64,000 nucleotides of DNA. It comes from an uncultured Pelagibacteraceae bacterium (GTDB taxonomy: Bacteria; Pseudomonadota; Alphaproteobacteria; Pelagibacterales; Pelagibacteraceae). The stretch spans positions 124,001 through 188,000 of the forward strand of contig CACAWX010000001.1 in the NCBI GenBank assembly GCA_902536305.1, read 5' to 3'. Each line of letters starts with the position of its first letter. Positions within the stretch are counted from its first letter, which is position 1. The notes under the pieces are model-generated. The model saw only the letters and a program-made list of their open reading frames with translations, did no database searches and was not told the DNA's origin. Positions 5,446 to 14,870 of the stretch are shown piece by piece. A program made the position numbers and the translations under genes.

Positions 5446-5451
5446 TTTTAA

Positions 5452-5541
5452 GAGGCAGGCAACAACCTGAAAAATTTTCACTACGGCTGCTTCTTTTCAG
5501 ACCTGACCGGGTTTATGAAACATCCACCTGATGCCAACCTC
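5452..5541 (-). ncRNA. ffs: Signal recognition particle RNA, small bacterial type
   Basis: Reverse strand contains CCCGGTCAGGTCTGAAAAGAAGCAGCCGTAG, matching the conserved domain IV GGUCAGGUC...GAAGCAGCC, flanked by complementary arms GAGGTTGGCA.../...TGCCTGCCTC. Confidence 0.93.
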
Positions 5542-5547
5542 AATATG

Positions 5548-11374: not shown

Positions 11375-11602
11375 ATGATATTCATAAAAAAATACCTTAA
11401 ATGGCTAAGCACTTTTCTAGTTCTTACAGGTATTTTACTAACTAATTTAAATATGTATCCAATTAATATAATGTTTCATGGTGCTGGAGTTGTAGGTTGG
11501 ACGATAGCTGGTTTTCTCTCAAAAGATAAAGCAATTCTTACAAACTTCGGGTTGCAAATTCCTTTATTTTTAATAGGATTTTATCAATTGTTATTTCAAT
11601 GA
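11375..11602 (+). CDS. Small hydrophobic membrane protein, unknown function
   Basis: 75 aa, 2-3 hydrophobic segments; stop overlaps start of the aquaporin-like gene (ATGA). Confidence 0.65.
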   Translation: MIFIKKYLKWLSTFLVLTGILLTNLNMYPINIMFHGAGVVGWTIAGFLSKDKAILTNFGLQIPLFLIGFYQLLFQ

Positions 11603-12249
11603 AAAATAGAATATTTATAGGTGAATTTATAGGTAGTGCTTTTTTAGTCATGATCATAGTTGGTTCCGGGATAATGGCTCAAAATTTGACTAGAGACTTT
11701 GCCGTCATGTTATTAGCTAATACTCTTGCCACTGGCGCAGGATTGTTTGTTTTAATTAATTCAATTGCAAATATTTCTGGAGCTCACTTTAATCCTGTTG
11801 TTACAATGACAATGTATTTCACAAAAAAAATTAAAAAGGACTTAATTTTCACTTATATAAGTGCCCAGATTTTAGGATGTTTATTGGGAGTAATGCTTGC
11901 AAATTTTATGTTTGATTTACCCTTAATAGAATTATCAAGCAAAGCTAGACCAGGGTTTAATATTTTTATTGCAGAAGTTATAGCAACTTTTGGTTTAATT
12001 TTCATAATATTTGGTTCACTAAAAAATGGAACTGTTGCAGTTGCTGCATCCGTTGCAACTTATATTACTGCTGGGTATTGGTTTACTTCATCAACTTCTT
12101 TTGCTAACCCTGCGGTTGCACTAGCTAGAACTTTCACTGATACATTTACAGGTATAAACTATTTAAATACACCTACTTACATAGTTGCAGAAATTATCGG
12201 TGCTTTGTTAGCTTTATTTATAATTCAGAAAATTTTTTACAAAAAATAA
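11599..12249 (+). CDS. MIP/aquaporin family channel
   Basis: Six TM segments; SGAHFNPVV and SFANPAVALAR (NPV/NPA) half-helix motifs. Confidence 0.88.
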   Translation: MKNRIFIGEFIGSAFLVMIIVGSGIMAQNLTRDFAVMLLANTLATGAGLFVLINSIANISGAHFNPVVTMTMYFTKKIKKDLIFTYISAQILGCLLGVMLANFMFDLPLIELSSKARPGFNIFIAEVIATFGLIFIIFGSLKNGTVAVAASVATYITAGYWFTSSTSFANPAVALARTFTDTFTGINYLNTPTYIVAEIIGALLALFIIQKIFYKK

Positions 12250-12519: not shown

Positions 12520-13488
12520 ATGGAACTTACGTTAATATACACGATTATAGGGTTCGGATTAGCAGGTTATAGTGTAATCGCTAACGACTCTATTCAAACA
12601 CTCGGAACTTTTATTGCCTCAAAGCAAAAATGGTTTAAATGGTACACGCTCGCAAGTGCTGCATCACTGGTAATGATTGTTGCAATAACTTGGGGTTGGT
12701 ACAGTTATGATGGAGATATTTCTTACGGAAGATTAACAAGAATACCTTTCCAAGAAATTCAATGGTACCACGCAGTCGCTCCTGCAATTCTATTGGCACT
12801 TACAAGAATAGGTATCCCAGTATCTACAACTTTTTTAGTTTTATCTGCCTTTGCCTCAACAGTTGTTTTGGAAAAAATGCTTGTAAAAAGTATTGTAGGT
12901 TATGGTATAGCGGCAACAGTTGCTTACTTCTGTTGGATTGCAGTTTCTAAATTTATTAATGAGAAACTTGATGAAGTTAAAGGAGATAAATGGATTGCTT
13001 TTTGGCGAAATTCAGTTTGGGTATCTTCAGGCTGGTTATGGTGGGTTTGGTTATCACATGATGTTGCAAACATTGCTGTGTACTTACCTAGACAATTAGA
13101 TCTTTCATTACTTTTAATTGTATTAACATACTTTACCGTTCTACTTTTTTATATCTTCTACATTAAAGGTGGTCCAATACATCAGGTTGTATTAGAAAAA
13201 ACTGGAACGAGATATGCTCGATCAGCAACGATCATCAACGTTATTTATGCTGCAGTTCTTTTCTACTTCAAAGAGTTGAATGATTTACCAATGTCAACGA
13301 CATGGGTGTTCGTAGGCTTATTGTGTGGAAGAGAGTTGGCAATTTCAACTATGAACAAGGATTATAAATTCAAATATGTGTTTCCATTGATTGGAAAAGA
13401 CTTTGTTAAAATGATATTTGGATTAAGTGTCTCGGTAGCAATCGTGCTTGCGATACATTACTTTATAATTCCTAGAGGATTATTTTAA
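12520..13488 (+). CDS. Polytopic membrane protein with PiT-like (inorganic phosphate transporter family) repeated motifs
   Basis: About 9-10 hydrophobic segments; paired motifs IANDSIQTLGTF / LSHDVANIAVYL and IPVSTTFLVLSAF / LPMSTTWVFVGLL resembling PiT signature repeats. Confidence 0.6.
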   Translation: MELTLIYTIIGFGLAGYSVIANDSIQTLGTFIASKQKWFKWYTLASAASLVMIVAITWGWYSYDGDISYGRLTRIPFQEIQWYHAVAPAILLALTRIGIPVSTTFLVLSAFASTVVLEKMLVKSIVGYGIAATVAYFCWIAVSKFINEKLDEVKGDKWIAFWRNSVWVSSGWLWWVWLSHDVANIAVYLPRQLDLSLLLIVLTYFTVLLFYIFYIKGGPIHQVVLEKTGTRYARSATIINVIYAAVLFYFKELNDLPMSTTWVFVGLLCGRELAISTMNKDYKFKYVFPLIGKDFVKMIFGLSVSVAIVLAIHYFIIPRGLF

Positions 13489-13937: not shown

Positions 13938-14870
13938 TTAAAACCAAGAAATATTTTTTGCTTTACAAATTTCTTGAACTTTTTTTGGATAGTCAGTTAT
14001 TATTCCATCGACACCATACTCGATCATTCTAATAATATCTTGTTCTCTATTCACTGTCCAAACACAAGTTGCGAGTCCATGTTTGTGTGCAAGTTCAACA
14101 TTTTGTTTTGTTACATCACGGTAAAAAACACTCCACACATGACCTTCTAATGATTTAATAATATTAGGAAGTAAAAATAATTCTTCCATAGGATAATTTT
14201 TAACCATCCATGGAGAGTTCTCATAAATATTTTTTTTAGTTATTGAAAGACCTTGTTGCAAAGTAATGAATCCTCTTAGAACATTTGGGTTTTGTTTTTT
14301 AAGAGCGTAAAGAATTCTAAAATCGTATGAAGTTATTAATGTCCTGTCCTCTAAATTAAATTCTTTAATATCTTTTAAAACTAATGAGACCATTTTTTCA
14401 GGGTCTGGTGTTACATTTTCTTGTGTAGGAGTTGATTTAATCTCTAGATTTAAAAATACGTCTTTATATTTTTCTTCAGTAACTAATTTAAAAAAGTCTG
14501 TTAATCTTGGTATTTTTTCACCTTTAACAGATTTTTGATTTTTAAATCTTTTTGCGTACTTTGTTTCTGGTTTTACACTCTCAATGCTATACTTACTAAT
14601 TTCCTCATAAGTTAATTCTACTAATTTCATGCTTTTATCTGTGATCCAGTTTCCTGAAGCATCTTTGACTAAATCAGGATTTAATCTGTAATCGTGAAAA
14701 ATAGTTGGAATATTATCTTTTGAAATTACGACATCAAATTCAACTGCCTTAATGCCTAGATCAAAAGTGTATTTAAAGCCAGAGATAGAGTTTTCAACAA
14801 TATCGCCTCTTGCTCCCCTATGGCCGTATATTCTTATGTAGTTAGGTTTCGTTAAAAATGGATTGATCAA
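13938..14870 (-). CDS. ugpQ: Glycerophosphodiester phosphodiesterase
   Basis: IYGHRGARGDIVENSISGFKYTFDLGIKAVEFDVVISKD and HDYRLNPD; adjacent to ugp ABC genes. Confidence 0.92.
   Translation of the reverse strand: MINPFLTKPNYIRIYGHRGARGDIVENSISGFKYTFDLGIKAVEFDVVISKDNIPTIFHDYRLNPDLVKDASGNWITDKSMKLVELTYEEISKYSIESVKPETKYAKRFKNQKSVKGEKIPRLTDFFKLVTEEKYKDVFLNLEIKSTPTQENVTPDPEKMVSLVLKDIKEFNLEDRTLITSYDFRILYALKKQNPNVLRGFITLQQGLSITKKNIYENSPWMVKNYPMEELFLLPNIIKSLEGHVWSVFYRDVTKQNVELAHKHGLATCVWTVNREQDIIRMIEYGVDGIITDYPKKVQEICKAKNISWF

Follow-up and report, generated by a model that had tools for sequence, protein, structure and literature searches.

A diverged PiT-like membrane protein in the pst slot of SAR11 genomes and on marine viral contigs

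The question raised by this locus is whether a membrane protein that escapes family annotation serves phosphate uptake in SAR11 bacteria, and how it relates to known phosphate transporters. The window analyzed, a stretch of 64,000 nucleotides, belongs to a Pelagibacterales (SAR11) assembly that totals 878,096 bases and is 73% complete, and the protein encoded at window positions 12520-13488 is named PITL in the present analysis. A first-pass annotation had called the protein unannotated, and searched alone against Pfam, NCBIfam, PHROG and PDB sequences it indeed matched no family and no entry. Weak matches to YpmT, prismane, CrcB and a complex I subunit were dismissed as chance. On the basis of its position in the slot that holds an eight-gene pst operon in sister strains, and of its presence on hundreds of marine virus fragments, PITL is very probably an alternative phosphate-uptake route for SAR11 and their viruses.

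Relation of PITL to the PiT transporters

PiT (Pho4) phosphate transporters carry duplicated G-A-N-D-x-A-N and P-V-S-T-T-H signatures. The first-pass annotation had proposed two pairs of related motifs, and they are present in both halves of the protein where it had placed them, starting with IANDSIQTLGTF at residue 20, IPVSTTFLVLSAF at residue 99, LSHDVANIAVYL at residue 178 and LPMSTTWVFVGLL at residue 256. The gene and its motifs are as follows.

12520..13488, + strand: PITL, predicted PiT-like membrane transporter of 322 aa with an ATG start (open reading frame; remote PHO4/PiT homology; fold match to TmPiT, 6l85)
12583..12600, + strand: N-half motif N22-D-S-I-Q26-T27, counterpart of GANDxAN (N22, D23, Q26 and T27 in 50/50 homologs; hhalign pairs the motif with GANDVAN)
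12817..12834, + strand: N-half motif P100-V-S-T-T-F105, counterpart of PVSTTH with Phe for His (F105 in 50/50 PITL proteins; His in 12/13 canonical PiT)
13057..13071, + strand: C-half motif H180-D-V-A-N184, counterpart of G-N-D-x-A-N with His for Asn (H180, D181 and N184 in 50/50; Asn in 13/13 canonical PiT C-halves)
13288..13305, + strand: C-half motif P257-M-S-T-T-W262, counterpart of PVSTTH with Trp for His (W262 in 50/50; His in 12/13 canonical PiT)

Across 50 PITL homologs, extending to about 51% identity, residues N22, D23, Q26, P100, S102, T103, F105, H180, D181, N184, P257, S259, T260 and W262 are invariant, so the motif pattern is more than chance. The alignment of these 50 diverse members gives the signature [AG]-N-D-[SA]-x-Q-T-L-G ... 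P-V-S-T-[TS]-F ... H-D-x-A-N-I ... P-M-S-T-[TS]-W. PITL departs from both strict PiT signatures. The Asp of G-A-N-D-x-A-N is kept in both halves, yet the motifs read [AG]-N-D-[SA]-x-Q-T, with Gln for the second Asn, and H-D-x-A-N; similarly, P-x-S-T-[TS] occurs in both halves, and the His that completes P-x-S-[TS]-[TS]-H is replaced by Phe or Trp in 50/50 members.

The proposal that PITL is a remote PiT relative with Phe or Trp in place of the His after STT gained support from three independent comparisons. Alignment of the 50-member PITL profile with 13 bona fide alphaproteobacterial PiT proteins by hhalign gave P 2.8e-7 across 246 columns and brought all four motifs into register. When the 50 members were scanned against all of Pfam with hmmscan, PHO4 was the sole recurrent family, detected in 21/50 (best E 5.2e-7), with one stray match otherwise. 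An AlphaFold model of PITL (pLDDT 86, pTM 0.84, from an alignment only 50 deep and not very diverse) was compared with the PDB using Foldseek, which returned two chains of TmPiT (6l85) at probability 1.00 and TM 0.64-0.65, the other listed matches having probabilities of at most 0.15. PITL is thus a PiT homologue with a predicted PiT fold.

The gathering score of the Pfam PHO4 model (PF01384) is 33.7 bits. At this cut-off the window PITL has no match and none of 61 related genomes (0/61) contains a canonical PHO4 protein above it; weaker PF01384 matches in these relatives fell only at PITL loci and were half-length (best E 1.7e-6, 26.1 bits). As PiT homology and fold are accompanied by departure from the strict signatures and the Pfam threshold, we place PITL in a separate, diverged subfamily and not among the filed members of the family. 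With the PiT/PHO4 family (PF01384; TC 2.A.20) and TmPiT it shares the modeled fold, an end-to-end profile alignment, Asp in both ND motifs and P-x-S-[TS]-[TS] in both halves. It differs in being 322 aa long versus about 400, some 80 residues shorter than TmPiT, in falling under the Pfam cut-off, in the loss of His from both PVSTTH motifs, and in its N-half NDSxQ and C-half HDxAN. Because PITL passes under the Pfam and NCBIfam cut-offs, metagenome counts of pst and pit made with those models would underestimate phosphate uptake in both cells and viruses.

Proteins of the E. coli PitA type, which are low-affinity transporters, resemble PITL in that one half carries HDxAN and the other an ND motif that includes Gln. 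However, the HDxAN of PitA-type proteins belongs to the N-half and their C-half has NDGQK, whereas PITL has HDxAN in the C-half, lacks the large inserts and has lost the His residues. This opposite placement, together with cross-half PHO4 matches, raised the idea that PITL might be circularly permuted, or have its halves exchanged, compared with PiT. That idea found no support: the PITL N-half aligns as well with one PiT half as with the other, and the PITL C-half favors the C-half of PiT.

The suggestion of an internal two-fold repeat gained indirect support. Compared with PiT, the PITL N-half scored P 2.9e-5 against the N-half and P 1.9e-5 against the C-half, evidence in favor of a two-fold origin. 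Compared directly, however, the two halves of PITL gave no significant similarity (P 0.02, with column shuffles scoring as well).

The phosphate slot and its neighbors

The ugp locus had been offered as the genomic context of the gene. The distance to the GDPD gene (at 13938) is about 450 bp as noted, but the neighborhood is not conserved, GDPD lying near PITL at only 9 of the best 80 loci, and ugp adjacency was set aside as a functional clue. The meaningful context is the pst slot with its ArsC-aquaporin module; two window genes belonging to this context are as follows.

11375..11602, + strand: s75, 75-aa membrane protein (DUF6552) at the left edge of the phosphate slot (PF20189, E 1e-9)
11599..12249, + strand: AqpS-like aquaporin (MIP family), a partner in the SAR11 arsenic module (PF00230, E 4e-25)

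Gene order in the window is kdsB-cycC-argF-argD-ABC2-GcrA-s75-AQP-PITL. Two relatives with Pst (G006 and G007) show kdsB-cycC-argF-argD-ABC2-GcrA-s75-ArsC-AQP-ppx-ppk-sixA-phoB-phoU-pstBACS, and a third (G014) has the same order plus a znu-zur insert. Another genus offers the same pair of alternatives between other flanks, mdh-znuABC-zur-s75-(AQP)-PITL-GMP-ilvD-valS in PITL genomes and mdh-znuABC-zur-s75-(ArsC-AQP)-phoB-phoU-pstBACS-phoR-GMP-ilvD-valS in Pst+ genomes, with single genes somewhat rearranged. For the second family, a TMEM164-like protein of 240 aa lies between pstS and phoR in one genome (G037) and adjoins PITL in three PITL genomes. The identical flanks around either PITL or pst indicate that PITL stands at the locus of the phosphate island and in its place. 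The PstSCAB-PhoU-PhoBR island shares with PITL the chromosomal slot and the arsenic-module neighbor; it is an ABC system with regulators, and its proteins are unrelated to PITL.

Among the best 80 PITL genome loci, s75 is present at 57 and the aquaporin upstream of PITL at 44, and s75 also lies to the left of pst in Pst+ genomes. By hand count, the aquaporin is directly upstream of PITL in 4/4 carriers of the 61-genome set, and in 25/27 Pst+ genomes that have it, pstC is found on the same contig at a distance of 4-9 kb. Together with ArsC, this aquaporin makes up the known SAR11 arsenic module (PMC6426599).

These neighbors bear on what PITL carries. With both PVSTTH His residues and one ND Asn replaced in all members, substrate or coupling could differ from that of PiT. 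CysP is a PiT relative that transports sulfate. It is accordingly conceivable that PITL carries another oxyanion, either sulfate or, with the ArsC-aquaporin module, arsenate or arsenite, its place in the pst slot being secondary; the site changes common to all members and the ArsC and/or aquaporin genes adjoining PITL in many genomes fit such a substrate. We consider this improbable. The ArsC-aquaporin pair also stands beside pst in Pst+ genomes that have no PITL, so the module follows the phosphate locus and not PITL, and it makes sense beside whichever transporter admits arsenate with phosphate. A Pst-less genome would moreover be left without a known dedicated phosphate importer, the phage linkage of PITL is to pstS, and SAR11 is reported to lack assimilatory sulfate reduction (PMC5069961). 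The genetics point to phosphate over another anion.

A search upstream of PITL for a conserved regulatory element gave no convincing one. In one genome (G027, C1:118397-119041) the aquaporin gene adjoining PITL has one in-frame TAA stop, possibly reflecting decay of the arsenic module. Elsewhere in the window, a bacterial small SRP RNA (RF00169) lies at 5448-5542 on the - strand.

Distribution of PITL, exclusion of Pst and proposed function

PITL homologs were detected in 14/61 sampled relatives, namely 10/37 genomes of the genus and 4/24 others of the order, with the window's own genome counted. In a sample of the class, 8/289 genomes gave matches (own genome and weak or partial matches counted), the full-length ones at 52-64% identity, and a thin phylum-wide sample of 399 genomes yielded no PITL beyond the window's own genome. 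A scan of 84,980 species genomes found at least 574 confirmed loci, the best 80 of which are nearly all from Pelagibacteraceae, and near-identical proteins were found on Pelagibacteraceae contigs. At least 573 confirmed loci came from a scan of viral contigs; a search of plasmids found none. The homologs in relatives, the genome collection and viral contigs identify PITL as a real gene.

Among 247 Pelagibacterales genomes, PITL is present in 43 and PstC in 175, with both in 1 versus 30.5 expected (Fisher P about 1e-26, a value that ignores kinship and, as the genomes are phylogenetically related, overstates the independence of events). The exclusion is seen in two families and at least three genera. 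Within the 61 relatives, PstC above the cut-off is absent from all 14 PITL genomes, and PITL from all 33 PstC genomes. Additional searches showed PstS and PhoU to be absent from 13/13 near-complete PITL-only genomes and both present in 5/5 Pst+ controls.

Such a pattern might be produced by phylogeny or assembly gaps without any functional replacement, as many of the assemblies derive from single cells or metagenomes, kinship makes the genomes non-independent, and 30/247 genomes have neither PITL nor PstC (many of them incomplete, several about 97% complete). This explanation is very improbable, as long contigs show PITL or pst between identical flanks in distinct genera and likewise, between different flanks, in the second family, and a 99% complete genome (G358) has PITL and lacks PstC, PstS and PhoU. 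A search for a canonical PHO4 transporter in 12 genomes without PITL and Pst found none. In five genomes of about 97% completeness that lack PITL, PstC and a PHO4 protein (G367, G369, G378, G382 and G388), the phosphate importer may lie in assembly gaps. The sole double carrier of the 247 (G352) has a divergent PITL 76 bp from phoR, followed by pstSCAB-phoU-phoB (L193 9930-13147), an arrangement that is possibly an intermediate state of allele exchange.

The two states of this locus can be related to earlier observations. The SAR11 PstS region was termed 'effectively bimorphic' in 2007, with pst scarce in Pacific samples (PMC1821060). According to the main-text section on this topic in a 2025 ISME J paper (PMC12636525), pst occurs in only 55% of offshore Pelagibacteraceae genomes and the remainder seem to rely solely on 'pitA', a gene presumed to encode a lower-affinity transporter. 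Like PITL, this 'pitA' belongs to offshore Pelagibacteraceae without pst, and since no canonical PHO4 protein was found in the 61 relatives, it is probably PITL; the account in that section comes without sequence, motif, locus or phage analysis.

The pitA annotation and the bimorphic pst region would suit an ordinary low-affinity PitA importer, with the allele marking only a phosphate-replete life and conferring no special properties. We give this an appreciable chance, short of even. It is compatible with, and overlaps, the explanation that we prefer. PITL is nevertheless far from PitA: it scores under the PHO4 cut-off, falls some 80 residues short of TmPiT in length, lacks the His residues and has HDxAN in the opposite half.

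From remote homology, modeled fold, co-occurrence, synteny and phage linkage we infer that the substrate is phosphate and the direction inward. It is highly probable that PITL is a PiT-fold secondary active phosphate importer, the only dedicated one in the SAR11 that carry it, which replaces PstSCAB-PhoU-PhoB-PhoR at the same slot beside the arsenate-reductase/aquaporin module. The best reading of PITL is therefore a one-gene alternative to Pst. In the mechanism we propose, two inverted halves would form a central site in which the two conserved Asp residues and the two P-x-S-T loops bind phosphate, probably with Na+, and the protein would alternate access; Na+ is a likely coupling ion in sea water. 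The Phe/Trp, His and Gln substitutions may adjust affinity, the coupling to an ion or the discrimination against arsenate.

The other allele would then consist of a single diverged PiT-like gene that stands in for the full pst operon with its regulators and adjoins an arsenic-detoxification module. With regard to regulation, PITL-only cells should lack the classical Pho regulon, as genome-wide searches found no PhoU, PstS or PstC in them. The allele thus predicts which SAR11 cells are without a Pho regulon and how their phosphate uptake and As/P stress differ. New in the present analysis are the diverged PITL signature, the replacement at the same slot and the pstS-PITL cassettes of phages; no published account of the replacement or the cassettes was found in the open-access literature.

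PITL on viral contigs

The viral set consists of 158 loci with 123 distinct PITL genes, drawn from the best-80 lists of two viral scans, which are samples and not frequencies. Genes around viral PITL are T4-like and include gp32 and UvsX as well as gp47-, gp46-, DNA polymerase-, helicase- and late sigma factor-like genes. In a tree, SAR11 PITL proteins form one clade and most viral copies another, with two viral rows among the cellular ones. Searches of 50,697 GenBank phage records and of a viral structure library found no PITL. A phage-derived pho4 clone near HIMB59 was reported in 2012 (PMC3429862). As with PITL, it is a PHO4-like gene on a marine phage clone that branches near an alphaproteobacterium; it differs in being one clone only, with neither pstS nor a SAR11 locus around it.

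Among the matches listed, pstS is immediately adjacent to PITL on the same strand at 9/123 distinct viral loci, and every pstS in the flanks of viral PITL is directly adjacent. One contig (L240) has the order late sigma factor, gp47-like, PITL, pstS, BMP-type binding protein, gp46-like. T4-like marine phages carry this predicted phosphate transporter, sometimes with pstS, presumably keeping phosphate flowing into infected cells. From pstS lying directly before or after PITL, and from a porin or small beta-barrel-like protein beside other copies, one might further propose that in the phage cassettes PstS hands phosphate to PITL without PstCAB, making PITL a binding-protein-assisted secondary phosphate transporter. 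We regard this as unlikely; if true, a phage would rewire host phosphate uptake with two genes.

Other neighbors recur among the matches listed: PhoH nearby in two viral PITL loci, a 5'-nucleotidase directly upstream of PITL in 6 and a porin-like protein adjoining it in 7. A general rule of an outer-membrane protein upstream of phage PITL was rejected, as a crude test found one at only 9/61 loci. The three-gene cassette of PITL, pstS and the BMP-type binding protein is found on viral contigs L240, L245 and L246. On five T4-like viral contigs (L148, L157, L160, L165 and L167), a porin-like gene whose product has an outer-membrane-type aromatic end residue lies directly upstream of PITL, and in several of these it is preceded by heme-oxygenase-like and ferredoxin-oxidoreductase-like genes. 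A 5-aminolevulinate-synthase-like gene is located near viral PITL at 15/123 loci among the matches listed (for example L111, L113, L119, L153 and L172).
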